A stretch of DNA of 49,476 nt from Thermoanaerobaculia bacterium (GTDB taxonomy: Bacteria; Acidobacteriota; Thermoanaerobaculia; Multivoradales; JAGPDF01): positions 1-49,476 of the forward strand of contig JAGPDF010000031.1 in the NCBI GenBank assembly GCA_018057705.1, written 5' to 3'. The position numbers and the translations under genes were made by a program. Positions within the stretch are counted from its first letter, which is position 1. Each line of letters begins with the position of its first letter. Positions 641-17,089 of this stretch are shown here, one piece after another. The notes under the pieces were generated by a model. The model was given only the letters and a program-made list of their open reading frames with translations, was not told the DNA's origin and ran no database searches.

Positions 641-2272
641 TTGAGATCCTTCGCCACTCTTGCCTGTTTCGTTGTTCAGAGTCTGCTCTGGGCTGGCGCA
701 GCCCTGGCTCAGTCGATTTTCGTTGTCCAGACCTCGCCTCCAGTTGAAGGGATGGCGATCTTCATCGACGGATCGTTCGCCGGCCGGACGGATGAAGACG
801 GCCAGTTGGCGGTGTCTGGGGTCGGCATCGGCACCCACCGCGTCCGCGCCGAGGACGCGAGCGGCAGCGTCGGCGAGGGGGACTTCGACTTCGCGGATGA
901 CGTGAACCTGGTGCTGGTGCCGGTCCAGGGCGTCGGCCGCCTTGGCTCGACTCCGAAAGAGGTTCCCCGAGCGCGAAGGGAGATCGACTTCAAGATCGAC
1001 ACCAATGTGCCCCAGGCGCGCGTCCTGGTGGACGGCAGGCACGTGGGAACGACCAGTGCCCAGGACGGGAATCTCGTCCTGAGGCTGGTCGACGGCGCGA
1101 GCCTTGACATTTCGATTCAGCGCGACGGCTTCGTGGCGGAGACCCGGCGCGTGCAGGTGGCCGAGGTGCCCAACTTCGCGCAGTTTCGTCTTCGGACGAG
1201 CGGACCGGCAACACCGGCTTCCGGCCAGGAGCTCTCGAAGAAGGGGAGGAACCAGCTCCCGGCGATCTTCATAGCGCTGGTCGCGGTAGCTGTCCTCGCA
1301 GCCGCTGGCGCCCTCATCTACACGATGTGGACGAAGAGAACCGAAGTGGAGTCCGACCCGGCTTCGGAGGCGACCTCGTCGGGCACACCAGTCTCCTTCG
1401 ATCGCTATCGCGTGCAGGGAGTACTCGGACAGGGGGGCGTCGCGACGATCTATCGCGCGATCGACGCGACGGATGGGAGCGCCGTCGCGCTCAAGGTCCT
1501 CGATCCAAAGTGGATGGCAGATCCAGAGATGGTGCAGAAGTTCCTCGCAGAGGCTTCGGCCCTCGAAGCCCTCCACAGGCTCGATCAGAGCGCCCCGATC
1601 GTGCGAATGCATCGGAGTGGGCGGGAAGGCGACCGCATCAACGGCTGCCCCTTCATTGCCCTCGAACTCCTGGAGGGCGAGACAATCGAGCAGCGCCTGC
1701 GCCGCGCAGGGCCGTTCTCGGAGCTCGAGTCGGCCGGCATAGGAGCCCAGGTGGCGCGGGCTCTGTCTCTCGTCCACCGGGCTGGCATCGTGCACCGTGA
1801 CTTGACGCCCGACAATATCTTTCTCGTTCCCGGGGAGGTCCGGATCGGCAGTCGGGTGGTGCGAGGCGCACCCCGGGTGGTGGTCATCGACTTCGGCGTC
1901 GCGCGACAGGAGTTTCTCTCGCGGGTCACCATGGACGGCTCGATCGCCGGCAAGCCGCCGTATATGTCGCCAGAGCAGTGCAGTGGCGCCCGGATCGACT
2001 TTCGGAGCGATCTCTACGCGCTCGGGATCCTCTTGTACGCGATGGCCACCGGTCGCCCGCCGTTCGACGGCAAGAACCCATTCGAGGTGATGCGGGCGCA
2101 CCAGCACAGCCCGGTCCCAGCCTTGTCTGGGAACTACTCCGTCGAGCTCCGAAACCTCGTTGCCCACCTGCTCGAGAAAGACCCAACGGAGCGGCCAGGA
2201 GCAGCGGATCTGGTGGCCGCCCGGCTCGAGAGCCGGTTCGAAGAACTCTGGCGCGTCCCCGTGCCTTCATGA
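641..2272 (+). CDS. Single-span Ser/Thr protein kinase with periplasmic PEGA-like domains
   Basis: Predicted trans-envelope kinase of about 543 residues. From the TTG at 641 it begins with a typical signal peptide (charged start, hydrophobic core, ALA|Q cleavage site). A further in-frame TTG at 515 would add 42 residues lacking such features. Two PEGA-like beta domains (about 25-100 and 115-185) lie outside, then a membrane span (206-229), then a cytoplasmic Hanks-type kinase domain (about 257-535). Kinase motifs present are the GQGGVA loop, the catalytic Lys in VALKVL (about 285), HRDLTPDN (385-392) and DFG (417-419). In the catalytic loop the usual Lys after HRDL is Thr; type VI secretion PpkA-like kinases often have Ser there. 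It is followed after 30 bases by an FHA protein and then a PP2C phosphatase, a writer/reader/eraser set. Kinase assignment is firm; substrate and start codon are not. Confidence 0.85.
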   Translation: MRSFATLACFVVQSLLWAGAALAQSIFVVQTSPPVEGMAIFIDGSFAGRTDEDGQLAVSGVGIGTHRVRAEDASGSVGEGDFDFADDVNLVLVPVQGVGRLGSTPKEVPRARREIDFKIDTNVPQARVLVDGRHVGTTSAQDGNLVLRLVDGASLDISIQRDGFVAETRRVQVAEVPNFAQFRLRTSGPATPASGQELSKKGRNQLPAIFIALVAVAVLAAAGALIYTMWTKRTEVESDPASEATSSGTPVSFDRYRVQGVLGQGGVATIYRAIDATDGSAVALKVLDPKWMADPEMVQKFLAEASALEALHRLDQSAPIVRMHRSGREGDRINGCPFIALELLEGETIEQRLRRAGPFSELESAGIGAQVARALSLVHRAGIVHRDLTPDNIFLVPGEVRIGSRVVRGAPRVVVIDFGVARQEFLSRVTMDGSIAGKPPYMSPEQCSGARIDFRSDLYALGILLYAMATGRPPFDGKNPFEVMRAHQHSPVPALSGNYSVELRNLVAHLLEKDPTERPGAADLVAARLESRFEELWRVPVPS

Positions 2273-2302
2273 AGCCCAAGCGTGCCTTCCAGGGAGGATG
2301 AA

Positions 2303-3346
2303 ATGAAACGCCCAATCGTAGCCGTCTTCGCCGCAGTCCTTCTCGCCGCTTGCCTCGCTTCTGAGGGCCTGGCCCAGCTCCGGCCCAAGATTCGCGAGAT
2401 CCGCGAAGCCTCTCGCGCCTATGTCAACGAGGTCGTCGAACTCGATGGCTACGTTACCCAGCTGAGCGAGAACGAAGCGACGTCGACCCGGTTCTTCCTG
2501 CTCAAGGACGACTGGGGCGGCATCATCCGGGTGCGCACCAGTCGAGAGTATCCAGTCGTCGGTCAGCGCTACAAAGTCACTGGGGCAATTGGCGAAGATA
2601 CCCGGCTCAGGGACATCTTCCTCGCCGAAGAGAGCCGAATTTCGCTCGACGAGAGCTCCGCACTCGGTGGGCTGGCCCCTCACGGTGCAGCAGGTAGTGC
2701 TGACTCCGCCATCAGCACCAGTCCGAGCGCGGTCATCCCCGGAGAATCGGCTGTCGTGGACGAGGAGCCCGCACCGGCTCCCTGGTACGAAAGCACCCCG
2801 ATGCTGATTGCCATCGTCGTTCTCGGACTTCTCCTTGCGGGGCTGCTCTTCGCACTCGCCCTCACGCTGGGCCGCAAGAAGCAGGCTCGACCGCGTACGG
2901 GCGACTTCAACCTTGCCGCCGCCGTTCATTCCGAAGCGCTCCCGGTGCCACAGCAGGTCATCGAAGGGCGCACGATCAAGATGCATGCCCCGCCGCCGGG
3001 AACCCTCAAGCTGCTTCCCGGCTGGCTGGAGGTCACCTCGGGCGACGAGGCGGTGCGAGAAATCCGTTTCTATCGCTTGAAGGGCGACGTCCGGCCGGAG
3101 ATGACGTTTGGTCGCGCTACCGGCCGACCCTACGCTCATATTCAGCTGAAGCCGATGACCGTCTCGTCTAGGCAGGCCTCGATCTCATTCGACGGCGGAG
3201 CGCCGCAACTCATGAACCTCGCCTCTTCGGACAGCAACGCTACGCGCCTCAACGGACGCGAGCTGGGATTGAACGAAAGCGCGCCGCTAACCGAGGGCGA
3301 TCGAATCGAAATGGGCGAAGTCAAGTTCCTGTATCACGCGAACTAG
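2303..3346 (+). CDS. Membrane FHA-domain protein with periplasmic OB-like domain
   Basis: 347 residues. The ATG at 2303 is chosen over an upstream GTG (2282) because AGGGAGGA ends 4 bases before it and the protein then starts directly with a signal sequence. A lipobox-like LAAC (Cys17) competes with a signal peptidase I site near LAQ (23-25), so it may be a lipoprotein. Residues 25-115 look like an OB/BOF-type fold (VNEVVELDGYVTQ, GIIRVRTS, GQRYKVTGAI). After a low-complexity linker comes a membrane span (167-190), then an intracellular C-terminal FHA domain (265-347) with GR, SSRQAS (family usually SxRH), a conserved Asn (RLNGREL) and GDRIEMG. FHA domains bind phosphothreonine, so this is the likely reader of the adjacent kinase. 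The OB-fold call is from pattern only. Confidence 0.75.
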   Translation: MKRPIVAVFAAVLLAACLASEGLAQLRPKIREIREASRAYVNEVVELDGYVTQLSENEATSTRFFLLKDDWGGIIRVRTSREYPVVGQRYKVTGAIGEDTRLRDIFLAEESRISLDESSALGGLAPHGAAGSADSAISTSPSAVIPGESAVVDEEPAPAPWYESTPMLIAIVVLGLLLAGLLFALALTLGRKKQARPRTGDFNLAAAVHSEALPVPQQVIEGRTIKMHAPPPGTLKLLPGWLEVTSGDEAVREIRFYRLKGDVRPEMTFGRATGRPYAHIQLKPMTVSSRQASISFDGGAPQLMNLASSDSNATRLNGRELGLNESAPLTEGDRIEMGEVKFLYHAN

Positions 3347-3357
3347 GGCCCGCCTTC

Positions 3358-4908
3358 GTGCGAACACGTATTGCCGCCTTCTCGGCGCAGGGAAGGCGTA
3401 CTCGGAACGAGGACGCGGTCTTCGTGAGTCCGCTCCCGCGAAGAGGGTCGGCGCTTGCGGTGGCCGACGGCATGGGGGGGCACCGCGCCGGTGATGTCGC
3501 CAGCCGGGAGGCGACGGAGGCGTTCTCGCGCGCCGTGAAGTCGAGCCCCAAAGGGGAGACTCCCGAGGCTCGGCTCCGGCGGTCGTTTCGCGCCGCGGCA
3601 GTCGGGGTGGCCGCCGCCGCGGCGCGCGACAGCGGTAGTGGTGACATGGGAACTACGCTCGTCGCTGCGCTCTTCGATGGCGGCGAGGTCTGGGTGGCGC
3701 ATGCCGGCGACTCGCAGGCGGTGCTCGTCTGTGGCGACGAGGTGCATGTTCTGACACGCCCTCACACCCACGTCGAAGAGCAGCTCGCGCGGGGGGAGAT
3801 TTCCGAGACCCAGGCGCTGGCGAGCCCGTTTCGGCATGCAGTGGTCCGGGCTCTCGGCAAGGAACCCGTCGAGCCCGATATCGAGCGCGTCGACGAGAGC
3901 CTATGGGGTATGCCCCCAGGGGCGGTGTTGCTACTCGCGTCGGACGGCGTGATGAACCATGTTGGGCAGCCGGAGGTCATCGAGCTCTTGATGGGTGGCG
4001 CCGACCTCGACGCCGGCGTGAGGGCGATGGTCCTCCGCGCGATCGAGAACGGCAGTGACGACAATGCAACAGCCGCTGCCCTCGAGTTCGGGCGATTCCC
4101 GCGTCGCCGAGGCGCTCTCGCTGTGAGAGCGGCTGCGGTCCTCGGAGCTGTCGTTCTGGCGGTGGCCTTGGCGGCGGCCATTTTTGTCCTGCGGCGGGTC
4201 CCGGCCGGGCTATCGGCAGCGCCCTTGGGCGGAGATCGGACATCGCTTCAGGCTCAGGCAACTTCTGCGCCGGAAGCGACTACTGCGATTGGGACCGACC
4301 GACCCTCCGGTATGGGGCAGCTAGCGCTGGAACGCGAACAGTCGGAGCGCGAATTCAACGAGAAGCGAAAGAAGATCGATGCCGAGACCGCGGAGGAGGC
4401 GAGGCGCAACCAGGAGCGCTTCGCTCGAGAAGCGGCGGCGGCGAAGGCGGCTGAGGATCGAAAGGCGGAGGCGGCGAGGATCGCTGCGCTTCCGAAGCGA
4501 AAGATCCCCAGCCTGGCCGTGGCGCCGCGCGTAACGGCTATGGAGAGCCCCGGGAACGCGGCTGGGGCCAGCGTCGAGCCAGGCGCGGCAGCAATGCGAG
4601 TCCACGCGACGCGAAAGACGAAGGGCACGCTCAAGATCCTCCCGCCGAGGAGCCCCGGCGATCCGCTCGGTGGCACAGTCAGAATCAAGTTCAACGTGAG
4701 CGCCAGCGGCGAAGTCCAGGACGCGAGGATAGTGCAGTCCCCGAGCCTGAAGCCCGAGTTGCGGAAGCGCTTGGAAGGCACTGCAAAGGATCTCGCGTTC
4801 ATTCCGGCTAGCGACGTTGGCCTGGGCGACTCCGCGCACATCAAGCCGGTCCCTGTCGACGATGAGGTCACCCTCGACCTCGCCTGGGAATACTGGTCTC
4901 GCAATTGA
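3358..4908 (+). CDS. Membrane-anchored PP2C phosphatase with periplasmic coiled coil and TonB-C-like tail
   Basis: 516 residues from GTG 3358, 11 bases after the FHA gene. Residues 1-245 form a PP2C (PPM) phosphatase with the metal-binding motifs RNEDA, ADGMGGH (36-42), DMGTT, AGDS (116-119), SDG (195-197) and DDN (234-236). This family removes phosphate from Ser/Thr using two Mn/Mg ions. A membrane span (257-278) follows, then a charged coiled coil (about 322-370), then a C-terminal domain (about 410-516) resembling TonB-C: VRIKFNVSASGEV, QSPSLKPELRKRL. Topology would put the phosphatase inside and the TonB-C-like part in the periplasm, mirroring the kinase and FHA neighbours. The TonB-C likeness is moderate. 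The stop codon overlaps the next start (TTGA), so the downstream SUMF1 gene is translationally coupled. Confidence 0.85.
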   Translation: MRTRIAAFSAQGRRTRNEDAVFVSPLPRRGSALAVADGMGGHRAGDVASREATEAFSRAVKSSPKGETPEARLRRSFRAAAVGVAAAAARDSGSGDMGTTLVAALFDGGEVWVAHAGDSQAVLVCGDEVHVLTRPHTHVEEQLARGEISETQALASPFRHAVVRALGKEPVEPDIERVDESLWGMPPGAVLLLASDGVMNHVGQPEVIELLMGGADLDAGVRAMVLRAIENGSDDNATAAALEFGRFPRRRGALAVRAAAVLGAVVLAVALAAAIFVLRRVPAGLSAAPLGGDRTSLQAQATSAPEATTAIGTDRPSGMGQLALEREQSEREFNEKRKKIDAETAEEARRNQERFAREAAAAKAAEDRKAEAARIAALPKRKIPSLAVAPRVTAMESPGNAAGASVEPGAAAMRVHATRKTKGTLKILPPRSPGDPLGGTVRIKFNVSASGEVQDARIVQSPSLKPELRKRLEGTAKDLAFIPASDVGLGDSAHIKPVPVDDEVTLDLAWEYWSRN

Positions 4909-6584
4909 TCAGTCGGATACTCGTCGCCCTCGTCGGCATCGTCTTCGCGTTGGTCTCTCAAGGCCAGCCTCTCAACGCCCAAACGGTGGTCGCGGTCGCC
5001 GGTTCCACGGTCACGCTGTCCATGGGCTCCAAGCAGGGTGTCGTCATCGGGCAGACCGGCAAGCTCTGCGCCGCTGAAGAGGTCTCGGGCAAACAGTACG
5101 AGGTCTGCGCTGCGCGGTTCGAGGTTACCGCTGTCCGCGATGCGACCGCGACGGCGCAGATATCCGGCGGGAACGCGGCGATGGTCGGGAGCGGCCATCG
5201 GGCCGTCTTCAACGTACCGCTTGCCCCCCCACCTGTTCAGCCGGCCAAACCTCCTTCACAGAAGACGCAGGCAGCTGCGAGTGCCGCGGCCCCGGCACCG
5301 GGACCCATGAGTCCGCTCGCCTTGCTGGAAGCCGCCGACAGAGCTTTCGACGCCGGCCGTTTCCGCGACGCGATCGGGTTCTACGATCGCTTGCTCGTCG
5401 TTCGCCCGACCGACCGCTACGCGGCCCAGCGCCGTTCCGAAGCCCAGGCCGAGATCGAGCGCGAGTCGGCCGCCGCGCGTGATCGCGAAGAGGAGGCCAG
5501 GCGGGCGGCTGAAAGGGAGCTCACGCGACAGCGGGACGCTGAGGAACTTGCCTACCTGACTGGGGCGCTGAAGCGCGCCAAGGCATCCGGGAGCCTCGAG
5601 AGCATCCGTGACTATGCGCGGCAGATTCTAGCTTTGGATCCCCTCAATCCGGATGCCGACGGAGTTCGCTCCGGTGATCGCCAGGCTGCAGCGGTTTCAG
5701 CCAAGTCGAGTGCCGAGGCCGGTGACGTCGCGGCTTTCGATCGCGCGAGGAACGTCTACGAGAAGGAGTGGCCCGGAGACCCGCAATTCAACAAGCTCCT
5801 GGCAGAGTTGGAGAGAGGTTTCTCGGAGACACTTGGGGGACGGACAGTCTTGCCCTGGGTACATGTGCCGGCTGGGGCGTACATCATGGGTTGCGCCAGC
5901 GTGAAGAGTGCTTGTCATGGTTGCGTCGGTACGGAGAGTGAATGCCGGCCCGACGAGCAGCCCGCCCACCCGGTTACGATCTCCAACGGCTTCTACCTGT
6001 CAGCGACCGAGACAACGGTGGGTCAGTACAGAACTTTCAGCGTGGCAAAGCGAAAGCCGATGCCGCCCAAGCCCAAGTTTGGCCAGACCGACGATCACCC
6101 GGTGGTGAACATCAGCTGGTTCGAGGCCCGTGAGTATTGCGCCTGGCTCGGCGGGCGCCTTCCGACGGAGGCGGAGTGGGAGTACGCCGCGCGAGGCGGA
6201 TTGAAGACGGGGCGCTATGCATGGGGGGATTCGATTCGACGGAAAGACGCCAACTATGGGGCCGACGTTTGTTGTTCCGGGGTTGCGGCTGAGGAAGATC
6301 GCTGGACCAATACATCCCCGGTCGGGAGCTTTGGCGCGAACGGATTCGGGCTCCACGACATGGCCGGAAACGTCGGCGAATGGGTCGCCGATTGGTACGG
6401 GGACTACAGTCGGGTAGCGGAAGCGGACCCGAAGGGCCCCGCTGCGGGTACGGTGCGAGTCCTGCGAGGTGGCTCCTGGACCGATACGCCTGTGGGCCTG
6501 CGGCTCACTCAGCGAAACTGGAATGAACCAGGCAGTCGATATCTCAACAACGGCTTTCGCTGCGCTCGGGGAGAGGCCCCGTGA
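4905..6584 (+). CDS. Exported protein: array module + TPR/coiled coil + SUMF1 (FGE-like) domain, copy 1
   Basis: 559 residues from TTG 4905, which overlaps the phosphatase stop. A signal peptide ends near NAQ (about 26). The shared array module follows (about 26-105: VAVAGSTVTLSMGSKQGV, KLCAAEEVSGK, AARFEVTAV). Next come a Pro/Ala linker, TPR-like helices with a charged coiled coil, and a SUMF1/formylglycine-generating-enzyme-type domain (about 318-556). Signatures are HVPAGAYIMG, ETTVGQY, HPVVNISWFEAREYCAWL, RLPTEAEWEYAARGG, GLHDMAGNVGEWV, VLRGGSW and GFRCA. The pair of catalytic cysteines of true formylglycine-generating enzymes is not visible between GGSW and GFRCA. An adhesive, lectin-like or other non-FGE role is therefore more likely than sulfatase maturation. 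An extra Cys-rich insertion lies just after the domain start. Function in this context is unknown. Confidence 0.75.
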   Translation: MISRILVALVGIVFALVSQGQPLNAQTVVAVAGSTVTLSMGSKQGVVIGQTGKLCAAEEVSGKQYEVCAARFEVTAVRDATATAQISGGNAAMVGSGHRAVFNVPLAPPPVQPAKPPSQKTQAAASAAAPAPGPMSPLALLEAADRAFDAGRFRDAIGFYDRLLVVRPTDRYAAQRRSEAQAEIERESAAARDREEEARRAAERELTRQRDAEELAYLTGALKRAKASGSLESIRDYARQILALDPLNPDADGVRSGDRQAAAVSAKSSAEAGDVAAFDRARNVYEKEWPGDPQFNKLLAELERGFSETLGGRTVLPWVHVPAGAYIMGCASVKSACHGCVGTESECRPDEQPAHPVTISNGFYLSATETTVGQYRTFSVAKRKPMPPKPKFGQTDDHPVVNISWFEAREYCAWLGGRLPTEAEWEYAARGGLKTGRYAWGDSIRRKDANYGADVCCSGVAAEEDRWTNTSPVGSFGANGFGLHDMAGNVGEWVADWYGDYSRVAEADPKGPAAGTVRVLRGGSWTDTPVGLRLTQRNWNEPGSRYLNNGFRCARGEAP

Positions 6585-8047
6585 TGACTCTTGGCGCGAG
6601 GCAAGGTTGGATGGCGATCGGCATCGTCCTGGCGTTCGCGCCTTGTCCTGCAGGCGCTCAGACGGTGACGTCGATCGCCGGCTCGACGGTGACGATCTCC
6701 GCTGGCACGAAGCAGGGGGTCGCGAAGGGGATGACCGGCAAGTTGTGCGTGGACGAGATGGTCTCTGGCCAGAAGATGCCGGTGTGCGCGGCGACATTCG
6801 AGGTGGTCTCGGTAGCCGAGGGGAGCGCCACGGCGCGGATCACCGGGGGAGAAACTGCGGCGGTGACGGTTGGCCATCGAGTGACCTTAGAGCAGCCCCT
6901 AGATCCGGCAGCCGCGACCGCGGCGCCGGCCGCGAGGTTTGCCGCCGCGCCGGTGCCTTCGAAAGCCGCAACTGCGGAGGAGCTTCTCGCTGCGGGCAAT
7001 CGCCTCTACGACGGGAAGGACTGGTCTGGCGCCGCGACGAGGTTTCGCGAGCTCGAGCGTCGCTTTCCGCAACATGCGGAGGCCGGCTACGCTGCGAAGC
7101 TCGCAGCGACCTGCGAGGAACGCGCCGCGGTAGTGCGCGCGGAAACGGAACAGGCAGCGCGCTCCGCGATCGCCAGCGCGGGCGCGGCGGAGATCGTCGC
7201 CAAAGCGCGCCGTCTCCTCGACGCCGGCCTCTGGGCGGAGGCGAAGTCCGAAGCTGAACGGGCCCTCGCCCTCGATCCTGCGAGCCGCGAGGCGACGGTA
7301 CTGCGAGCCGAGGCGGAAAGTCACCTCGGCCCGCCGAAAGAGATTCAGGATAGGAGGACTGGCATTCGCTGGAAGCTGATTCCAGCGGGAGCGTTCACGA
7401 TTGGCTGTACAGCGGGAGACCCGGACTGCTACCCGGACGAGATCCCTGCGCACGCAGTGACAATCTCTCGGCCCTATTACCTGGCGGCAAGTGAAACGAC
7501 GGTTGGCCAGTACCGCCGTTTCGCGAACTCGGTGAGTGGGGTCACACCCACCCCGCCTGGGTTTTCTCAAGGCGAGGATCACCCTGTGGTGAAAGTGACG
7601 TGGGGCGACGCCGAGGCATTCTGCGGCTGGGCAGGGGGCCGCCTACCGACGGAGGCGGAGTGGGAATACGCGGCGCGCGCCGGCCGTTCGGACGGACGCT
7701 ACCCGTGGGGGAATCAGATATCGCACGAGAGTGCCAACTACGCTGGCACCGAAGGGCGAGACTCCTGGGCATACACCTCACCGGTGCAAGGCTTCGCTCC
7801 GAACGGCTACGGGCTCCACGATATGGCGGGGAATGCCTGGGAGTGGGTGCAGGACGGGTACGGCAGCTACTGGAGCGGCGCAGCAACGGATCCGACAGGG
7901 CCTTCTTCCTCCTCCAAGCGTGTCTTGCGGGGCGGCTCCTGGAGCCATCAATCGAGGTGGTTGCGCGTCTCGAACCGCCACAGCTACTTGTCGGGCGATC
8001 GAAACGACAACATCGGGTTTCGATGTGCGAAGACTGAAATTCCTTGA
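6584..8047 (+). CDS. Exported protein: array module + TPR-like repeats + SUMF1 domain, copy 2
   Basis: 487 residues. The ATG at 6584 shares its first base with the preceding stop (TGATG) and follows GGGAGAGG; a GTG at 6581 is possible. The order is a signal peptide ending PAGAQ, the array module (VTSIAGSTVTISAG, KQGVAKGMTGKL, VSGQKMPVCAATFEV, ARITGG), an Ala/Pro linker, a TPR-like helical block (AEELLAAGNRLYDGKDW) shared with the genes at 8476 and 10380, and a SUMF1 domain from about residue 260 (LIPAGAFTIGC, ETTVGQYRRF, RLPTEAEWEYAARAG, GLHDMAGNAWEWV, VLRGGSW, GFRCA). As in copy 1, the FGE catalytic cysteines are missing. The near-identical modules in neighbours point to recent tandem duplication. 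It is probably co-transcribed with 641-6584. Confidence 0.75.
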   Translation: MTLGARQGWMAIGIVLAFAPCPAGAQTVTSIAGSTVTISAGTKQGVAKGMTGKLCVDEMVSGQKMPVCAATFEVVSVAEGSATARITGGETAAVTVGHRVTLEQPLDPAAATAAPAARFAAAPVPSKAATAEELLAAGNRLYDGKDWSGAATRFRELERRFPQHAEAGYAAKLAATCEERAAVVRAETEQAARSAIASAGAAEIVAKARRLLDAGLWAEAKSEAERALALDPASREATVLRAEAESHLGPPKEIQDRRTGIRWKLIPAGAFTIGCTAGDPDCYPDEIPAHAVTISRPYYLAASETTVGQYRRFANSVSGVTPTPPGFSQGEDHPVVKVTWGDAEAFCGWAGGRLPTEAEWEYAARAGRSDGRYPWGNQISHESANYAGTEGRDSWAYTSPVQGFAPNGYGLHDMAGNAWEWVQDGYGSYWSGAATDPTGPSSSSKRVLRGGSWSHQSRWLRVSNRHSYLSGDRNDNIGFRCAKTEIP

Positions 8048-8081
8048 ACCTATGGACTCTTGAACGACTTGGAGGAATTGA

Positions 8082-8440
8082 ATGAAGCGTAAGGCTGTGG
8101 AGGCGAAACACATTTGGATTGGACTCGGGTTCTCTGGATAGTGATTGGGCTAGCCTGGTTGCTGATCCCACGGGCGGGCGCGGCGCAAAGCGTGACTTCG
8201 ATCTCGGGTTCGACGGTGACGATCTCCGCCGGCGCGAAGGCGGGTGTCGCGAAGGGGATGAGCGGCAATTCGTGCGTAGACGAGACGGTCTCCGGCCAGA
8301 TGATGCCGGTCTGTGCGGCGACGTTTGAAGTGGTCTCTGTGGCGGAGGGGAGCTCCACGGCGCGACTCGACCTGCAGATCGAGGTCAGAACCGCGAAGTC
8401 CTGCTGTGCTCCGGTGATAGAGAAGGTAACTGTCCAGTGA
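8082..8440 (+). pseudogene. Array paralogue shortened by internal deletion, with frameshifted signal peptide
   Basis: The only well-placed start is ATG 8082 behind GGAGGA, but that frame stops at 8141 after 19 codons. The homologous frame opens at TTG 8114 and encodes a hydrophobic signal segment and the array module (VTSISGSTVTISAGAKAGV...VVSVAEGSSTAR). At about 8365 the module jumps to a tail ending RTAKSCCAPVIEKVTVQ. That tail matches the end of the next gene (RTAKFMGSPVIESVAIE), so the linker, TPR block and most of the C-terminal domain are missing. The simplest history is a gene like 8476-9639 that suffered an internal deletion and a frameshift in the signal peptide. If the TTG at 8114 is used, a 108-residue mini-protein could still be made and exported, so loss of function is not certain. 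Confidence 0.65.
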
Positions 8441-8475
8441 TCAGGCGGCGATCCCCCAGAGGAAGGAGAAGTAGA

Positions 8476-9639
8476 GTGGTCCAGCCGAGTTGGATGCTGA
8501 CTGGCAAGAGCCTCGGCGCGATCTTGCTTGGAGTCCTCGTCGGAAGTAGCAGCTTCGGCCCCCAGTCTGCCTCTGCGCAGACGGTGACATCGATTTCGGA
8601 TTCCACGGCGAGGATCTCGGCAGGGTCCAGGCAGGGCGTTGCTAAAGGTATGACCGGCAAGCTCTGCGTAGACGAAGTGGTTTCGGGCCAGAGTTTGGAA
8701 GTGTGCGCAGCGACCTTCGAGGTGGTTTCGGTTGCCGATGTGAGCGCGACGGCGAAAATCACTGGCGGTGAGGCGCGGGCGGTTACGGTGGGTCACCTCG
8801 CCAGATTCGCTCAGCCGTTGAAGCCGGTGGAATCGGCGAGAGCGCCGGTCGCGAAGCTAGCCGCTGACTTGCCGTTAGCACCTCCAAAGAGTCCCGCCGC
8901 GGAGGAACTCCTCGCCCGTGGCAATCGGCTCTTCGACGTGAAGGATTGGAAAGGCGCGGCAATCGCTTTCGGCGACTTCGTTGCGCAATTTCCGGGCCAC
9001 GTCGACGTCGACTATGCTCGCAAGCTCCTTTCAGCTTGCGCGGAGCGCGAATTGGCCACTGCCGGCGAGGTCGCCGAAGCCAAACGGAAAGCAGCGGATG
9101 CCGCAAAGGCGGCCGACCTCATCGCTCGCGCGGAACGGCTGCTGGTTGCGGAAAAATGGGCGGAAACCAAAGCGCTCGCGGAGGAAGCAATTGCTCTTGA
9201 CCCTTCCCAAGAAAGGGCCCGCTCGTTGATGGCACTCGCCGAGCGGCAGCTCTCTGTTCCAGAGCGCACTGCGCCGGAGGTGGCGGTGCAACTGGTGATT
9301 TCCGCAGAAATGAGGAAGGCTGGCATGCCGAACCCGGATTCTCACTGGAAGTGTGCAGTCTTCGACGGCGCCGGAAACAACCTCTGCGAGACCGATGACC
9401 TCTACCTGAGCGGCGAGGACCGCGTCCACGCCAGTGGTACCTGTCCGATTGCTGCAAGGCGTATCGATTCACATCTCCTATGTGTGCAGTTTCAACCTGG
9501 CTACGGGCAGGTAGCGGCATCGAGGAGTTTTCCATTGGTTCTCGAAGGTAACCGATTCCCTCGAGTAGAGGTCAACGTGAAGTTCAGGACCGCGAAGTTC
9601 ATGGGTAGCCCGGTCATTGAATCGGTGGCCATCGAGTAG
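8476..9639 (+). CDS. Exported array paralogue with unknown C-terminal domain
   Basis: 387 residues. GTG 8476 is preferred because AAGGAG lies 7 bases upstream; an in-frame GTG at 8437 overlaps the preceding stop but adds an Arg-rich stretch ahead of the signal peptide. Signal peptide cleavage is expected at SASAQ. The array module follows, then a linker, then the shared TPR-like block (AEELLARGNRLFDVKDWKG). A C-terminal domain of about 120 residues is rich in beta-prone segments and has four Cys (SHWKCAVFDGAGNNLC, GTCPIAARR, HLLCVQF) that could form periplasmic disulfides. I do not recognise this domain. It is the intact counterpart of the shortened copy just upstream. Confidence 0.7.
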   Translation: MVQPSWMLTGKSLGAILLGVLVGSSSFGPQSASAQTVTSISDSTARISAGSRQGVAKGMTGKLCVDEVVSGQSLEVCAATFEVVSVADVSATAKITGGEARAVTVGHLARFAQPLKPVESARAPVAKLAADLPLAPPKSPAAEELLARGNRLFDVKDWKGAAIAFGDFVAQFPGHVDVDYARKLLSACAERELATAGEVAEAKRKAADAAKAADLIARAERLLVAEKWAETKALAEEAIALDPSQERARSLMALAERQLSVPERTAPEVAVQLVISAEMRKAGMPNPDSHWKCAVFDGAGNNLCETDDLYLSGEDRVHASGTCPIAARRIDSHLLCVQFQPGYGQVAASRSFPLVLEGNRFPRVEVNVKFRTAKFMGSPVIESVAIE

Positions 9640-9749
9640 TGGCGGCCGGGCTTGAGAGGGACAGGGTCAAACGGTGTTGTGCGGGGAATTGATGGACTAG
9701 GCGCTTGCGATAACGCACGAGTCGCGCCTGACCGACATTGAGCCGGAGT

Positions 9750-10317
9750 ATGAAACCAGCGGGGGCGTTTGTTGGAGGAGTCACGGTGGATCCCAAGTCG
9801 CCGGAGTCAGACCGTGCTCTCGCTTGCACTCGCGATAGTGGGCGGACACTTCGATCACGGCCCGCCGTGGCGCATACTGTAATTTCGATTTCGGGCTCGA
9901 CAATGACAACCTCCGCGGGAGCGAAGCAGAGTGTGGCGTAGGGGATGACCGGGAAGTTGTGCGTGGACGGGGTGGTATCCGGCAAGAGCATGCCGGTCTG
10001 TGCAGCGACAACGGAAGCGTTTGCGCCTCTATGCGGACGGCTCGTTTTCGCGAGAAGTTGGGGCAGGTGCATCCTCGCTTTCGTGGGAGGTAGGTCGCTG
10101 GATCTCGACGCACGAAGCTCATGCCACTCCCTCCGGTCAAGTCGTTCTGAACTACGTACAGCTCGCAGACGCGGAGGGATGGAACGCGATGGACTCACCT
10201 CGATTTGAGATCAAGGGCAAGGCTGCGGAGCTCTTCTACTTCCTCGACGGTGAGGGGCCGGAGGCACTCGTCAGGTTCCAGCGACTGGGAGAAGCGCCGG
10301 GGGCGCCGCCGAACTGA
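9750..10317 (+). pseudogene. Decayed array paralogue (nonsense codon plus frameshifts)
   Basis: ATG 9750 opens a frame that reaches the array module (VISISGSTMTTSAGAKQSVA), then stops at TAG 9940-9942 exactly where functional copies have Lys in GVAKGMTGKL (AAG to TAG). The same frame continues with MTGKLCVDGVVSGKSMPVCAAT, then loses homology near 10010. A shifted frame (10000-10317) carries an unrelated-looking tail (LYADGSFSREV, VVLNYVQLADAEGWNAMD). The signal peptide also seems shifted: the hydrophobic stretch VLSLALAIVGG is in a different frame from the start. At least three lesions make a functional product unlikely. Confidence 0.7.
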
Positions 10318-10379
10318 ACCCGGGAGAGAACCCGAAGGTTTGACGCTTAACCCATGAAGGCTGGCAAAGGAGACAGATT

Positions 10380-11540
10380 GTGAAGCTTTCGATCGACGAA
10401 TCGCCCCGACCGATGCGCCGCCAGCTCTGCGCTCTGCTGGCCGGCCTCGCCGTCCATTTCGCGCCTACACTGGTGTCAGCGCAGAGCGTGACCGCCATCT
10501 CGGGTTCGACGGTGACGCTCTCCGCCGGCGCGAAGCAGGGTGTCGCAAAGGGGATGACCGGGGTTCTCTACGTCGTCGACGACGTGGCCGGTCAGAAGAT
10601 GGAGGTCAAGGCAGCGCGTTTCGAAGTGACGGCCGTCGCGGACGGGAGCACCGCGGCGCGGATCACGGCTGGCGACGCGGGCGCGGTCTCCGTTGGGCAT
10701 CGGGCGCGGTTCGACCAGCCGCTCCAGCCGCCGGCGGCGACGACGGCCGCTCCGGCTGCGAAGCCCGCCCCGCCCGCGCAGGCGCGCGCCGCGACCGCAG
10801 AAGAACTCCTTGCAGCCGGCAATCGCCTCTACGACGCGCAGGACTGCGCGGGAGCCGCGGCGAAGTTCCGCGAGCTCGAGAATCGCTTCCCGCAGCATTC
10901 CGAGGCCGGCTATGCTGCGAAACTCGCCGCGACCTGCGAACAGCGTGCTGCCGCCGCCCACGCCGAAACAGAGAGAGCCGTCCGCGCCGCCACCGCCAGC
11001 GCCGGCGCGGACGAGATCGCAAATAGGTCGCGCCTCCTCCTCGGAGCCGGCCAGCTGGACGAAGCGGGAAGCGAGGCGAGACGCGCGCTCGACCTGGATC
11101 CCAAGAATGAAGTTGCAGTGGCTGTTCAACGTGAACTGAAGCAGTTCGAGTTTGGATATGTGGTTGTTTGTCAACCTCCGCTAGGGGTGACCACCAGCTG
11201 CGAGGCGTACGTAGATGGCGAGAGGATAGCTAATTTTGGGGGCAATAATTACGGAACTCATGTGACGTCGAAACAGTGTCACTGGTCAAAGGTGAAGCCC
11301 GGGCAGCATGACGTGGTGTTGCGCTGTGAGGACAAGAACTTCTTCGGCAAGCCGGAGTCGAACCTGCACGCAATCGTAACCAACGGGGGCTCGGTAGTTG
11401 TAGATTTCGGAGTCTGGGCTGACTTCAAACTCAAGATGCGGGCATGGATGGTTGAAGAGCGCGATTTCAAGGAATTTCTTCGTGGCGTGGAGGGCCTTCC
11501 TGGCGATGTTCTCAGAGGAATTGCCACTTCCAGCCAATGA
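10380..11540 (+). CDS. Exported array paralogue with PEGA-like C-terminal domain
   Basis: 386 residues from GTG 10380, preceded by AAAGGAGA at a good distance. A signal peptide ends VSAQ (about 35). It carries the array module (VTAISGSTVTLSAGAKQGVAKG, AARFEVTAVADGS), an Ala/Pro linker, the shared TPR-like block (AEELLAAGNRLYDAQDCAG...FRELENRFPQHSEAGYAAK) and a C-terminal segment (about 255-355). In that segment CEAYVDGERIANFGGN, VKPGQHDVVLRCEDKN and GGSVVVDFGVW follow the rhythm of PEGA or carboxypeptidase-regulatory-like beta sandwiches. In this copy the module's usual two Cys are lost (VLYVVDD instead of KLCVDE, VKAARFEV instead of VCAATFEV). It is the last gene of the plus-strand arm and faces the caspase operon. 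Confidence 0.7.
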   Translation: MKLSIDESPRPMRRQLCALLAGLAVHFAPTLVSAQSVTAISGSTVTLSAGAKQGVAKGMTGVLYVVDDVAGQKMEVKAARFEVTAVADGSTAARITAGDAGAVSVGHRARFDQPLQPPAATTAAPAAKPAPPAQARAATAEELLAAGNRLYDAQDCAGAAAKFRELENRFPQHSEAGYAAKLAATCEQRAAAAHAETERAVRAATASAGADEIANRSRLLLGAGQLDEAGSEARRALDLDPKNEVAVAVQRELKQFEFGYVVVCQPPLGVTTSCEAYVDGERIANFGGNNYGTHVTSKQCHWSKVKPGQHDVVLRCEDKNFFGKPESNLHAIVTNGGSVVVDFGVWADFKLKMRAWMVEERDFKEFLRGVEGLPGDVLRGIATSSQ

Positions 11541-11556
11541 CGCGGCGAATTGTGGC

Positions 11557-11752
11557 AAGTGCCGTACTTCGGCTACGACCGGCACCGGATTAGAGCGCTT
11601 CGGTGGGGGTCTTGCGCTCCTCGAGGGGGACCTGGATGGGGCGGAGGGGCGGCGCTGGGGAGCAGGAGATTGAGCGGACGTCCGTAAATGATGATGGCGT
11701 GCCAAGAGGTCCGGGTGCCTCTCTCGAGCTAGGCGACAAGGGGGAAAGCACC
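11557..11752 (-). pseudogene. Remnant of a second caspase-like gene (C-terminal end)
   Basis: Read on the minus strand, this stretch encodes LERGTRTSWHAIIIYGRPLN, which aligns with LESGTRTSWRALILQGSPLN near the C-terminus of the caspase-like protein at 12385-13587. After a frameshift it continues as PIQVPLEERKTPTEA (against PTQLTLEERLYTPDM), and after another as PVPVVAEV (against FVPVRVVEE). Differences between the two DNA copies fall mostly on third codon positions, so both evolved as proteins before this one broke. A stop lies just before LERGT. No caspase catalytic region could be found further upstream (11753-12384). Confidence 0.6.
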
Positions 11753-12384
11753 TATGGAATGCGCGCGGACGTCTCTACCTTCCTGGAGTGTCCGCGCCCG
11801 AGCCTCTCTCTCGCGAAGACTCTCGTTGCGCCGTCGGCTCGGGGCTGCCATTTCTTTGTGTTCATTGCGGCCCCTTTTGTGAGGCGAGTGCGCGAGAGAA
11901 CGATCGCGCGATGCGCGGGCGCTCCGCGGCCGAGTTGACCGAGTTCGCATCGAGGGCGACAAGCGTCAGGTGGTGAAGCGGCCTGTCGACCCATGCATCG
12001 CGCACGCCCTGGACGGTGCCTCGCTTCGCCTGCGGGAATCTGCACTGGGGGCGCCCGCCGACGGCGCTCTAGACGATCGGCCCGGAGGTCCGAGGTCCTA
12101 GTGTGCAGCAATGCGCGGAAGGCCGGACGATTCCAACCGCGCATTATGGGGCGGCTCCTGCCTGGGGCAACGACCCGAAGAGGTCGCGCGTCTCGAAGCG
12201 CAAAAACTATTCGCCACGCAACCGCGACGACAAGGACGGGCTAGGTTGTGCACGCACGAGCAATCCGGATCGATTCGGATCTGGCGGCCGGAACCGAGTC
12301 CCCCATGGCCGCTTCGAGACCACCTCCTTCCCGTTCTGCTCGTTGCGTGACGGCACCATTCTCGGTCGCTTGTGCTGGGCTGAA
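11753..12384. other. Intergenic region without a supported gene
   Basis: About 630 bases between the caspase remnant and the intact caspase gene. Both strands have only short frames with poor starts. The best is a minus-strand open frame at 11862-12068 containing WVDRPLHHLTLVALDANSVN, which looks protein-like but has no good start and no family I recognise. The area probably holds further decayed sequence. Confidence 0.45.
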
Positions 12385-13587
12385 TCAGTGCGCGGCTGCT
12401 GACTCTTCGACGACTCTGACAGGAACGAAGCTGGTCATGTCGGGGGTGTAGAGGCGCTCTTCTAGGGTGAGTTGGGTGGGGCGGGAGGGGAGGCGTTGGA
12501 GGGGGAGGAGGTTCAGGGGGCTTCCCTGGAGGATCAGGGCGCGCCAGGAGGTGCGGGTGCCGCTTTCGAGGGTGGCGGTAAAGGAGACGTAGCCCTTCCC
12601 TGGCGGCAGTCCTTCCGGGCGGATGGCGGCGCGGACGAGGAACTGATTGCCTTCGGGCTCCACCTTGAAGGTGACGTGGAGCGTACCCATGGCTTCGACG
12701 GACTTTGCCCGCGCACCGAAGATGTCGACTTCGGGGACCAGCGAGAGGGCGATAGGAGCGCTCGCCGAACCGGTGCGGATGAGCCAGGGCTGCTGCACTC
12801 TCCCGGCGGTCCGGCCCCATTCGAAAAGCCGGCGCTCGGTGTAGAGCGCCGCCTCGTCGAGAGAGATCCGGCCGTCGTGGTCACGGTCGACTCCGGCGGC
12901 GCCACCGAGCGCTTCGATCAGGTAGTGGGTGAACACCCCGCGGCGGAACTCGTCCGACTCGAAGCTCTCCTGCCCGAGGCGGGAGGAGGACAGAACCGCC
13001 GTTCCGGTAGCTCCCGACTCCAGAGCGTCGGCAAGTGTGTAACTCATTGCCCCGCTGGGCCCGCCTTTGGACATACCGCTGTGGCAGGCGTCCAGCACGA
13101 GCATCCGCGTCTTCACCGGCAGGCTCCGCAGAAGACGGAAGAGCTCGGGGACCGGGAGACCGGTAGTCTCGACCTGCTCGACGGTCGTCTCGTTCAATAC
13201 GAGTACCGGACCTGCGGCAGTTTCGACTCCGTGAGAAGAGACGAAGACGAAGAGGGTGTCCGAGAGGCCGACCTGAGTTCGCAGAAGCTCAATCTCCTCC
13301 TTCACGCGGGCCGCGGTGGCTTGGACACCGGCGTTTCCTGCCAGGAGCCGGATGCGCTCGGGGGCGTATCCCCCGTGTGGACTGGATAGCAGTGCCTCGG
13401 CCAGAGCGCCAGCGTCGCTGGCCGCAAAGCGGAGCGGCAGGATGCTCGAATCCCGATAGTCGGAGACTCCAACGAGCAGTGCCCACCGCTTCGCTGGCTC
13501 CTCCGCAGCAGGTGCAGTGGTTGCGCTGGCAAGGGCGAGGAGCAGAAGCGCACCGAGCGTGAGGCTCGGGTTCCGGCAGGAGAGCAT
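12385..13587 (-). CDS. Exported caspase-like (peptidase C14) protein
   Basis: 400 residues. A signal peptide ends near APAAE (about 28). The caspase/metacaspase p20-like domain follows (35-225): WALLVGVSDY opening strand, catalytic His119 in VSSHGVET, catalytic Cys168 in VLDACHSG, then VLSSSRLGQESFES and GVFTHYLIEAL. A perfect EF-hand-type loop, DRDHDGRISLDE (234-245), suggests Ca2+ binding, which activates several metacaspases. The last ~110 residues are beta-rich and unassigned; this part is duplicated as a remnant at 11557-11752. The family cleaves after Arg/Lys or Asp, but specificity cannot be read here. It is the last gene of a minus-strand operon, 8 bases after the propeller gene's stop. 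Export makes a periplasmic or extracellular role likely, unlike typical cytoplasmic bacterial caspases. Confidence 0.85.
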   Translation of the reverse strand: MLSCRNPSLTLGALLLLALASATTAPAAEEPAKRWALLVGVSDYRDSSILPLRFAASDAGALAEALLSSPHGGYAPERIRLLAGNAGVQATAARVKEEIELLRTQVGLSDTLFVFVSSHGVETAAGPVLVLNETTVEQVETTGLPVPELFRLLRSLPVKTRMLVLDACHSGMSKGGPSGAMSYTLADALESGATGTAVLSSSRLGQESFESDEFRRGVFTHYLIEALGGAAGVDRDHDGRISLDEAALYTERRLFEWGRTAGRVQQPWLIRTGSASAPIALSLVPEVDIFGARAKSVEAMGTLHVTFKVEPEGNQFLVRAAIRPEGLPPGKGYVSFTATLESGTRTSWRALILQGSPLNLLPLQRLPSRPTQLTLEERLYTPDMTSFVPVRVVEESAAAH

Positions 13588-13595
13588 TCGAAACC

Positions 13596-15704
13596 TCAGC
13601 CCCCGGTTGTCAGGACGGCGAAGTCGGCGAGCGTCTGGGACGAGAACCCGGCTACCGCATGGGCCCGAAGCGAGGTCCTCTTCTCCGAGGGTCGTTGATA
13701 GACGAGGCTGAACGCGACGTCGGCCTCGATCCGTCCTTGACTCGGCAACCGCATCTCATCGAGCAGTTCGCCGGTACGAAGGTCGACGCGCTGAATCGCG
13801 TGGCCCTTGCCATCTCCCGTCTGGACGATGTCGACCCGAACGAACGGGTCTATCAGGCGCTGCCGGGCCTGATAGCGGTCGAGCGCCCGTTTGCCGTAGT
13901 TCTGTGGGAGGCCCGAGGCGATCGCTTCCGGAGTGCGTGCCGAATCGGCCAGGAGTGCAAGTCCAGCCACGATGGCGACACTGCCGCCCACCAGCAGAAT
14001 GTCCTGGGCAATCTTGGATCCGACTTCGCCCGCACCGACAGCGAGAACGAGTCCTCCGATTGCCATTGCGATTGCGATCTTGCGCTGCTTCTTTTTGAGC
14101 TCCGCCGCAAGCTCGAGGTCCTCCGGGTAGACCGGGGGGCGCGGCTTGGCGCGGCTCCAGACACGTTCGAGACCACTGCCGGTCAGCGAGTAGGCCACGT
14201 CCTCGTCATCGGATTCGATGAGCACGCGGTCCTCGTCCAACCAGCGAACCCGGTGGTTCCGGTCGACGGAAGCGAAAGTGGGTTTGCCCTTGTCTGTTCG
14301 CTCCTGGGGGTAGCGCGCGATCTCCAGCCCGGTGGACGTATCGATCACCACCATTCGCACGAACGCCGGATTTCCCCATTGATAGAGAGTGCCGATCGCG
14401 CGGGTGCCGGCGGGGGAGCCGATGATGTAGCCCGGCATTCCCCGCTCGTCGATCTTGTGCGCCCAGAGCGGCTGGCCGCTCACCAGGTCGAGGCAGCCAA
14501 ATCCATCGTCTGCGGCGAGATAGACCTTGTTATCCGAAACGGCGAGGTTGTTGACGTCGTCCAGCTTGCCGGGCGTCTTGCCCTTCCAGAGTGGGTTCTT
14601 TTTGAGATCTTTCTTCGTGGCGGCGCGCAGGTCGAAAGCCTTCAGATCGTCGTCTTCGGCGAGAACCAGGACGTGCTCCTCAATGCCGATGTGCTTGTCT
14701 TCGACGCTGTACTCCCAGAGGTCTGCGCCGCTGAACAGGTCGAGAGCGTGCACGTCTTCAACCTCTTGTTCGATGATTCGCCCTTCGTGAAGGTAGTACT
14801 TGATGTTCTGAGGGTCGTTGATCTCGCGGCGCCATCGTGTCTCACCGGTCAGCAGATCGAGGAGGTAGGCACCGCCGCTGGGCTTCGAGAGCTCGTCTGC
14901 GGCGTAACCTCCGAAGGGGACGAAGGACTTGAGCAGGGATGCGCCAATGGACTTGCCGATCGTCTTGCTGACGGAGATCGGGTCGATCGTCTTGAGAAAG
15001 AGAGAGTGCTTGTCGTAGATCGGGAGAACCAGCAGGGGGTCCTCGATGATGGCGCCGGCATTCCTCCAAATAACTTCACCGGTAAACTGATCGATCGCCA
15101 TGGTCAGGCCGACCTTCTTCTCTTCCCCTTTGGCAGGCGGAGCGCCGGGGTTCTGGACGCCAAGGAAGACAATGATGCTGGTCTGGACGACCTCCAGGAG
15201 GGAGTCTAGCTCCGCGACGATGGGAAGTTCCCAGATCCGCTCGCCAGATCCGCCTTCCATGCCGACGACTCGCGACGAGAGGCCGACCACGACAACGCCG
15301 AGGCTCGTGCTGTGGAACCAACGGACCTCTTCGCCGAAGTCCTGTTCCCACACCTGTTGCCCGGCTTCGATCGCGGGCGGAACTACGGGAAGCTCGACCT
15401 CGGTGGCCTCGAGAGTGGCGGGCGGAATGTCGATCGGCGTGCCGAGAACGCTCTCGGCGCCCGCCGCGGAAGGATCCGGCAGGCTCTTGGCCGCAGGGTC
15501 TGTGGCTGCCGCTTCGGAGGGCACCTCCGGGGAGGGTGCGCTTGGCGGATCCTGGGCAGCCAGGCCAGGAGGAAGCGTTAGTGCCATAGCCACGAGAGCG
15601 AGATGAGCACCCAGGCGGGTGAACGGTCCGAACGAGCTCTTCCGCCATGAACCGAGCCAATCACGAGTAGCGGGTCCGGCCAGGAGTTGCCGATGAGCGT
15701 TCAT
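13596..15704 (-). CDS. Membrane protein with PQQ-type beta-propeller repeats
   Basis: 702 residues. An N-terminal hydrophobic segment (ALVAMALTLPPGLAAQ, about 35-50) acts as signal peptide or anchor. A Pro/Ala/Glu-rich linker follows, then PQQ/Trp-docking-like propeller blades in 115-480: WEQDFGEEVRW, DQFTGEVIWRN, LLTGETRWRREIN, LFSGADLWEYSV, LVSGQPLWAHKI. About residues 550-605 hold two hydrophobic helices (AIGGLVLAVGAGEVG; VGGSVAIVAGLALLA) and a short region follows with one more blade-like motif (VDLRTGELLDEMRL). Such propellers are mostly protein-interaction scaffolds (as in BamB) rather than enzymes. The operon order OmpA-like protein, propeller, caspase suggests an envelope complex. A soluble quinoprotein dehydrogenase is unlikely because its catalytic residues are not apparent. 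Confidence 0.7.
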   Translation of the reverse strand: MNAHRQLLAGPATRDWLGSWRKSSFGPFTRLGAHLALVAMALTLPPGLAAQDPPSAPSPEVPSEAAATDPAAKSLPDPSAAGAESVLGTPIDIPPATLEATEVELPVVPPAIEAGQQVWEQDFGEEVRWFHSTSLGVVVVGLSSRVVGMEGGSGERIWELPIVAELDSLLEVVQTSIIVFLGVQNPGAPPAKGEEKKVGLTMAIDQFTGEVIWRNAGAIIEDPLLVLPIYDKHSLFLKTIDPISVSKTIGKSIGASLLKSFVPFGGYAADELSKPSGGAYLLDLLTGETRWRREINDPQNIKYYLHEGRIIEQEVEDVHALDLFSGADLWEYSVEDKHIGIEEHVLVLAEDDDLKAFDLRAATKKDLKKNPLWKGKTPGKLDDVNNLAVSDNKVYLAADDGFGCLDLVSGQPLWAHKIDERGMPGYIIGSPAGTRAIGTLYQWGNPAFVRMVVIDTSTGLEIARYPQERTDKGKPTFASVDRNHRVRWLDEDRVLIESDDEDVAYSLTGSGLERVWSRAKPRPPVYPEDLELAAELKKKQRKIAIAMAIGGLVLAVGAGEVGSKIAQDILLVGGSVAIVAGLALLADSARTPEAIASGLPQNYGKRALDRYQARQRLIDPFVRVDIVQTGDGKGHAIQRVDLRTGELLDEMRLPSQGRIEADVAFSLVYQRPSEKRTSLRAHAVAGFSSQTLADFAVLTTGG

Positions 15705-15739
15705 GGAAGGCTCCCAGAAGCAGCAATAAATGATGCGAG

Positions 15740-16675
15740 TTAGTCGTAGGGACGGAGGATCGTGACCCGCCGGCTCTTTTCCCGGTTCTCTACACCCCTG
15801 TTGAGTACCGGTACCTCAGAGCCTCGGCCGGTCGGCTCGAGAGCGACGCTGACCTTTGCCTTCTGAAGGAAGGCGAGTACCGCGGCGGCTCGGGCGCGAG
15901 AAAGAGCTACGTTGTGAGGCTGAGAACCCTCGCTGCTCGAGTGCCCCTCGATGATGTAGCGCTCACCGCTCGAAGCCCGGCGAAGCGCTTTCGCGAGCTG
16001 ATCGAGCTGGCTGGTCGACAGGGGCAATAGCTTGTCGGAGTCGACATCGAACAGGACGGTCAGGTTGATTCCGAAGCCTTTCGCGCCCACGAAGTTCTCA
16101 TCGGTCGGCTTGCCGGCGAGGGCCTTGGGTCGAACGGACTTGCTGCCAATCTGGAGCTGCGAGGTGATCTCTTCGTCCGATTTGAAGGCGAACTGCGTCG
16201 CGCCGTCGGTTTCCCGGACGGTCTGGGGAGCGAACTGCGCCTCGATCACCTTCTGGTCTTCTGGGCTCTCCGCGAGGACCAGAGCCGACTGAAGGTAGAT
16301 CTCGGCGCCCTCGGCGTCGCCCTCCGCACGCGCGACTCTTGCCAGGCCGATCAGCGGCTGCGGATCGCCAGCGCGCAGCGCCAAAGCTGTCCGATAGGAC
16401 AACGAGGCGGGCTCGAGCTGGCCGAGCCGCTCCTGGGCTTCCCCGAGAGCAAGATGGGCGGCGGGGCTGCGAGCGCAGTTCAGGACCAGACTGCGCGCGC
16501 GAGCCTCATGGTCGGTCGGAGCTAGAGCTCGTAGGTCCCAGGCTGCGGCTGCGATGGCGGCCTCGCCGCAGTCGAGCGGCGCATCTGCTCGAGCCTGGAG
16601 CGCCCCGACGGAAAGCGTCAGGAAAGGCACAACGAGAGCAGCGCTGGTCAAGTCGGTTCTTGAGAATCGCGGCAT
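15740..16675 (-). CDS. Exported TPR protein with C-terminal OmpA-like peptidoglycan-binding domain
   Basis: 311 residues from the ATG at 16675, where a signal peptide begins (MPRFSRTDL..., cleavage near ARA|D). The frame stays open to 16999, but that extension has no signal features. Residues 35-160 contain TPR-like helices (AAHLALGEAQERLGQ, SYRTALALRAGDPQPL). The last ~115 residues form an OmpA/MotB domain: LFDVDSDKLLP, IIEGHSSSEGS, NVALSRARAAAVLAFL, GRGSEVP, EKSRRVTI. This domain binds diaminopimelate of peptidoglycan non-covalently. It is the first gene of the operon with the propeller and caspase-like genes (35-base gap to the propeller) and probably tethers their complex to the cell wall. 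Confidence 0.8.
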   Translation of the reverse strand: MPRFSRTDLTSAALVVPFLTLSVGALQARADAPLDCGEAAIAAAAWDLRALAPTDHEARARSLVLNCARSPAAHLALGEAQERLGQLEPASLSYRTALALRAGDPQPLIGLARVARAEGDAEGAEIYLQSALVLAESPEDQKVIEAQFAPQTVRETDGATQFAFKSDEEITSQLQIGSKSVRPKALAGKPTDENFVGAKGFGINLTVLFDVDSDKLLPLSTSQLDQLAKALRRASSGERYIIEGHSSSEGSQPHNVALSRARAAAVLAFLQKAKVSVALEPTGRGSEVPVLNRGVENREKSRRVTILRPYD

Positions 16676-17089
16676 GAAGCGGACAAAAGCAAGCACCGCG
16701 CCAGGAGAGTTGGGCTGCCTCTTTCCACCTTCCGGAGATCGAGGCGGTGGCCGTGCTTGCCCCAGGGAATCGAGTACTCGCAAGGTCTCGCGGTTCGGGT
16801 TTTCGGGTTTCGGGCACCAGGGCATCGAGCCGCGGGGGACTCGCTGCTCGGGAGCGCTTAGCGAGTGCGCGCCGACTGCCAAGTAGATGCGCGCGGAGTG
16901 AAGGTAGTGAGCGGCGCCCCATCGGCAGTTTCCAGTTGTTGCGCACCACTCATGGATGGTCGCCGTCTTGCAGCCCGGAGATCGGGAGGGGTCAGGCATG
17001 GCTTCGAATCTCCAGGCTGGAAAGCCGAAGGTCGAGATCGCCAGAGCTAGCCATCGATCGCGTCGAACAGAGCTGAGAGGGGGATCGCA
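16676..17089. other. Divergent intergenic region
   Basis: About 410 bases between the OmpA-TPR operon and the lipoprotein gene. It must contain both promoters. I could not identify convincing -35/-10 boxes, operators or a gene. Confidence 0.4.

Follow-up and report, generated by a model that had tools for sequence, protein, structure and literature searches.

Tandem exported proteins with a FlgT_C-like module and variable tails behind a kinase-FHA-PP2C operon in a Thermoanaerobaculia bacterium

The stretch of 49,476 nucleotides analyzed here (the window), from a Thermoanaerobaculia bacterium, carries six tandem copies (c1 to c6) of an exported module of about 83 residues at positions 4905 to 11540, with all genes in one direction and directly behind genes for a membrane Ser/Thr kinase, an FHA protein and a PP2C phosphatase. 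The best explanation of the locus, which we consider somewhat better than an even bet, is that the array encodes exported binding proteins that feed the kinase relay and are of the retroelement-diversified kind, here without the retroelement. Taken as a whole and with the same modest confidence, this explanation holds that tandem duplication creates the copies, which then diverge as tails are swapped or lost, and that c1 and c2 carry SUMF1 tails that do not activate sulfatases but serve as binding domains of the retroelement-diversified sort. Neither the upstream operon nor the link between SUMF1 and retroelements could be seen by the first-pass annotation of this DNA.

The module copies were located by a five-row profile and a single-sequence search of the bacterium's own 5.08-Mb genome, where the profile retrieved only six matches, all of them in the window (E values from 3e-46 to 3e-19). 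Together with DNA repeats at 60 to 80% identity, which agree with the six copies, this confirms the tandem exported family of the first-pass annotation, although its extent (4980 to 10727) fell short of the true span given above. Copies c1 (4905-6584, module at 4974-5222) and c2 (6581-8047, module at 6653-6901) encode a signal peptide, the FlgT_C-like module, TPR-like helices and an FGE-sulfatase (CLec) tail that matches PF03781 (SUMF1) with E values of 1.4e-58 and 3.9e-56, respectively, and their VR-equivalent stretches lie at 6477-6566 and 7940-8029. Copy c3 (8114-8440, module at 8180-8368) carries an internal deletion: it retains the signal peptide, of the 83 module residues roughly the first 63 remain, and a short tail resembling that of c4 follows. 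Copies c4 (8437-9639, module at 8572-8820) and c6 (10380-11540, module at 10476-10724) have a signal peptide, the module and TPR helices, and end in C-termini without an assigned family, beta-rich in c4. Copy c5 (9870-10317) is decayed; its module remnant (9870-10019) is similar to the module only over profile positions 2 to 51 and contains one in-frame TAG, after which a C-terminal piece continues in another frame. The ends of c1 and c3 overlap the starts of c2 and c4. The C-termini thus differ, and copies have been lost, as had been proposed.

The C-termini of c4 and c6 gave no convincing Pfam match. Relatives of the c4 tail in the class search came from the own genome only (1 of 148), and the c6 tail had no match in plasmids. 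Immunoglobulin light chains retrieved with the c6 tail from PDB sequences (E values of 0.07 to 1.5) were taken as noise. No fold was assigned to the c4 tail because its model has a pLDDT of about 60. Between modules, dN/dS was 0.12 to 0.59 (10 pairs, several with dS values near saturation), so the module appears to be under purifying selection, and the rapid change once suggested for the family is not supported for the module itself. The G+C content is 60 to 66% over window positions 1-20000, which hold the array and the signaling genes, versus 67 to 72% over 20001-49476, and this could mark an acquired region. Convergent with the array is a gene (12385-13587, minus strand) for a caspase of the EACC1 type that has a hydrophobic segment at its N-terminus; genes for a PQQ/BamB-like and a TPR-OmpA protein follow.

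The module had been left without a domain name by the first-pass annotation. Structure models now predict that it has the C-terminal barrel fold of FlgT, followed by TPR-like helices. In the AlphaFold model of c6, the best structural match of the module block (pLDDT of 75 to 92) was FlgT (3w1e; Z = 12.4; rmsd of 1.9 Å over 83 residues). The N-terminal barrels of F1-ATPase ranked close behind (Z of 11.x, within about 1 Z unit), which makes this a common small barrel fold. FlgT_C is nevertheless favored, since the matched segment of FlgT (chain 266-355) lies at its end and FlgT ranked first in the Foldseek listing for the c4 model, which also holds TPR, F1-ATPase and CBM41 rows. The window proteins had no match to PF16538 (FlgT_C) at E ≤ 1, and sub-threshold matches were obtained in relatives (E values of 0.19, 0.0062 and 4.9e-5), the best of them in L036 with 24.1 bits versus a Pfam gathering score of 27.

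A profile built from the window alone revealed no direct module relatives in genome contigs, viral contigs or PDB sequences (one chance row, E = 0.74). In the class search, matches to the module at E ≤ 0.001 came from 44 of 148 genomes, and many of the matching ORFs were of CsgG-like length. Searches of seven further genomes from the bacterium's genus or family gave no module match in six and, in the seventh (G002), a match to a LysM protein only. Module-TPR-SUMF1 proteins recur in the phylum: in a census of loci picked from the best matches, which is not a random sample, 14 of the 21 distinct module ORFs outside the window also carried SUMF1, 1 had a propeller-like tail (weak PF25174 match, E = 0.015), 2 were cut by contig ends, and 4 were LysM (1), caspase (2) or CsgG (1) proteins. 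Since the same module type occurs within CsgG-like, LysM and caspase proteins of the phylum, it is a general adapter. In two of the loci (L106, 6459-9029, and L108, 6671-8866, both minus strand), the FlgT_C-like module follows the protease domain of a caspase protein, and the L108 protein adjoins a caspase-nSTAND1-WD40 protein.

Variation between genomes, another expectation of the first-pass annotation, was borne out by these missing matches and by a relative, G472, whose independent array carries SUMF1 and propeller-like tails. An unrooted tree built from 21 modules separated the six copies of the window from the five of G472 by one branch in 200 of 200 bootstrap trees. This is consistent with separate expansions of the two arrays; good support was obtained for only 1 of the tree's 18 inner branches, and a further 10 rows, which were not grouped, may fall between the two sets.

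Upstream of the array, three genes on the plus strand form the signaling set. The kinase (515-2272; PF00069, E = 4.1e-39), which has a partner in L104, is predicted to have periplasmic repeats, a transmembrane helix at about residues 250-268 and a cytoplasmic kinase domain. The FHA protein (2282-3346; PF00498, E = 8.4e-8) shows a signal peptide, a periplasmic domain, a transmembrane helix and a cytoplasmic FHA domain. The PP2C phosphatase (3358-4908; PF13672, E = 6.8e-18; NF033484) has a transmembrane helix at residues 260-278 and a periplasmic tail with a weakly TonB_C-like end. Hydropathy profiles place one central helix in each of the three proteins, and N-terminal hydrophobic segments also in the kinase and the FHA protein. 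The genes are tightly packed, with gaps of 9 nt (kinase-FHA) and 11 nt (FHA-PP2C) and an overlap of 4 nt between the PP2C gene and c1. Two more ORFs containing Ser/Thr kinase domains lie elsewhere in the window (22198-24897 and 27310-30564, both minus strand).

This gene order is partly conserved. In G440, from another family of the class, the order kinase, FHA protein (47% identical to that of the window), PP2C and module protein is repeated on contig C418 (8350 bases), which then ends, and in L097 a kinase gene lies immediately 5' of a module-SUMF1 gene. The full FHA protein is rare, with matches at E ≤ 1e-15 in 4 of 148 class genomes, two of them over the C-terminal part only. In these two, G225 (L103, 7052-11240) and G489 (L107, 6729-9176), FHA and PP2C genes are neighbors with a kinase nearby, and the stretches covered yielded no module protein; these loci are a more divergent form of the same signaling set. 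Within the family of the bacterium, the best rows for the PP2C phosphatase were matches to the catalytic domain only (36 to 40% identity), and no orthologous locus was found among them.

The relative G472 provides the link to retroelements. Its contig L084 carries, in order, array copy A, bAvd (2297-2680; E = 1.8e-18), a reverse transcriptase (RT; 2707-3744; RVT_1, E = 1.9e-21), a template (3746-3886) and copies B and C. Positions 2297-3886 are thus a complete diversity-generating retroelement (DGR) inside a second, independent module-SUMF1 tandem array. The template is Asn-rich, its 30 codons reading WNNNPDNLRVSNRNHNDPSNRNNNIGFRCA. Differences from it concentrate at adenines: copy A kept 13 of 26 template A versus 58 of 64 other bases (P = 6e-5), and copy E kept 11 of 26 versus 51 of 64 (P = 9e-4). 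In gapped alignments of copies D and F, which have indels, differences fell on 17 of 31 A versus 19 of 123 other bases (D) and on 14 of 26 versus 20 of 91 (F). Identity between the G472 paralogs drops from 64 to 89% in the rest of SUMF1 to 38 to 50% in the 30-codon end; for the closest pair, it is 44% in the VR versus 89% elsewhere. In genus g38, which has one array-type copy per genome, the same end is 57 to 97% identical versus 77 to 94% elsewhere. The retroelement appears to hypermutate its array. Tails are also swapped in G472, where SUMF1 tails occur with a propeller-like tail on the next copy after the retroelement. No match for the FHA protein was found in G472, so the retroelement and the kinase operon were never seen together. 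More widely, RT matches at E ≤ 1e-8 occur in 47 of 148 class genomes, by no means all of them DGRs, and a SUMF1 ORF lies near the RT in 12 of 13 RT loci chosen from the best matches. Two RT-Avd-SUMF1 cassettes and a third, apparently broken, stand in a row in a single-contig genome (L130, G047:C1:2187000-2206000).

Downstream of the window array, at 12132-12251 (plus strand), the 3' end of c2 is repeated as an isolated fragment that is out of frame (about 120 bp at about 68% identity). It covers roughly the part of the gene that corresponds to the G472 template. Searched with the c2 3' end, the own genome returned this fragment (E = 4e-4) and otherwise only a 19-base match (E = 0.41). Among the 14 module-SUMF1 loci, only the RT-bearing L084 and the window have an isolated 3'-end copy of more than 100 bp; L085 gave matches to neighboring array copies only, and 11 single-copy loci gave none over 22 bases. 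We call the fragment template-like and not a template because it has a 4-nt insertion relative to c2 and neither copy shows adenine bias against it (A versus non-A kept: 11 of 24 versus 34 of 66 in c1, P = 0.81; 13 of 24 versus 47 of 66 in c2, P = 0.14). No match to RVT_1 or to the L084 RT was found in the own genome, a draft that is 96% complete. Two collinear weak tblastn matches to the G472 RT (11729-11905 and 11985-12053; E = 0.21 each) were considered as an RT relic upstream of 12132 and dropped because a frameshift-aware RT profile scored 21.5 over 11541-12132, below the null mean of 23.0 from window-wide controls. A seventh, decayed gene at 11541-12132 was likewise rejected (SUMF1, 27 versus a null mean of 34; module, 17.3 versus 18.5), in a scan where the c5 region, the positive control for the module, scored 90. 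A cyanobacterial paralog with remnant TR-VR homology and no nearby RT is described in the available part of PMC7517822.

From this, we propose that the kinase, FHA protein and PP2C phosphatase would sit in the inner membrane and that the locus would act as one signaling unit. The tandem genes would make exported proteins composed of a FlgT_C-like barrel, a TPR stalk and a variable tail, duplicated in tandem and with tails later swapped or lost. The SUMF1/CLec tails would bind ligands, and the operon partners would relay the signal. What the sequences establish are the copies, their domains, the gene order with its partial conservation, and the retroelement signature in G472; ligand binding, coupling to the kinase and descent of the array from a diversified one are what we infer. 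Most cellular retroelement targets have an N-terminal membrane segment or signal peptide, according to the part of PMC8144416 available. The window array may be a frozen self-diversifying sensor repertoire, because a similar array of a distant relative is still accompanied by an apparently hypermutating RT; the window would have lost such an element, with sequences that look frozen and a possible template relic downstream. More tentatively, and with clearly less confidence than the explanation above, one could see here a two-part receptor repertoire, in which a transmembrane kinase-FHA-PP2C relay is fed by tandem exported barrel-TPR-CLec binders. These would diversify by duplication and tail exchange, to which some lineages add hypermutation by a retroelement, and the window would be a frozen repertoire with an orphan template. 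If the coupling is real, the sensor libraries of these bacteria would be separable units that connect to a single kinase, and the window would offer a case for studying how a library of this kind becomes fixed once its mutator has been lost.

The strongest alternative, which we find rather unlikely, is an ordinary tandem family of exported FlgT_C-TPR-SUMF1 envelope proteins, which would have a structural or assembly role as GldK/PorK do; some copies would be decaying, and 12132-12251 would be stray SUMF1 debris unrelated to retroelements. This alternative fits the existence of SUMF1-fold relatives such as GldK and PvdO, the own genome without RT, c1 and c2 without adenine bias, and the single-copy relatives in genus g38, which largely keep the tail end. 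However, two families have independent arrays with swapped tails, and a complete retroelement accompanies one of these arrays; the module proteins stand behind kinase-FHA-PP2C in two families; and the NCBIfam GldK scores (115 to 119) are far under the cutoff of 350. A role of the tails as exported SUMF1 oxidases with periplasmic substrates, formylglycine-generating or other, is improbable: the PF03781 matches are strong, but unrelated domains replace the tail in c4 and c6, and active-site cysteines are absent from both SUMF1 tails. The latter was seen in an alignment including human FGE chains mutated at one or the other of two cysteines, which we take to be the catalytic pair; these positions are non-Cys in the aligned c2, and c1 has no Cys there by sequence. 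The polymorphic effector reading of the first-pass annotation, taken here as a toxin/effector system whose copies would have the export module in common and alternate in their toxic tails, would account for the common N-terminus, differing C-termini and broken copies but is very improbable, as no toxin domain was recognized in the tails, SUMF1 is the commonest tail, and the overlapping ends of c1/c2 and c3/c4 hold no small immunity genes.

The explanation we favor, exported binders feeding a kinase relay, brings together three elements that were not found in combination in the literature searched: an exported scaffold of the FlgT_C-like type, a relay through a transmembrane Ser/Thr kinase, and retroelement-type CLec tails. 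The FlgT C-terminal domain (PF16538; PDB 3w1e) has the same small beta-barrel fold, as predicted, and an exported context, whereas the module lies under the Pfam cutoff in sequence and belongs to a TPR-tailed protein, not to FlgT. The SUMF1/EgtB/PvdO family and GldK/PorK share the FGE-sulfatase fold and export; c1 and c2 differ from them in lacking the FGE active-site cysteines and in scoring far below equivalog cutoffs. The variable proteins of DGRs (Mtd, TvpA and TaqVP) resemble the window proteins in their C-terminal FGE-type CLec tail and the G472 system in RT, bAvd, Asn-rich TR and adenine-biased VR differences. In contrast, no RT was found in the genome of the window and no bias in c1 and c2, and the window proteins have an export signal and a FlgT_C-TPR stalk, in tandem copies some of which bear non-CLec tails. 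Closest in the tie between CLec tails and Ser/Thr kinases are the cyanobacterial variable proteins of PMC7517822, in which, as far as the available part of that source describes them, kinase and CLec form one fused and mostly cytosolic protein; in the window they are encoded by separate genes, one for an exported CLec protein and the other for a transmembrane kinase.
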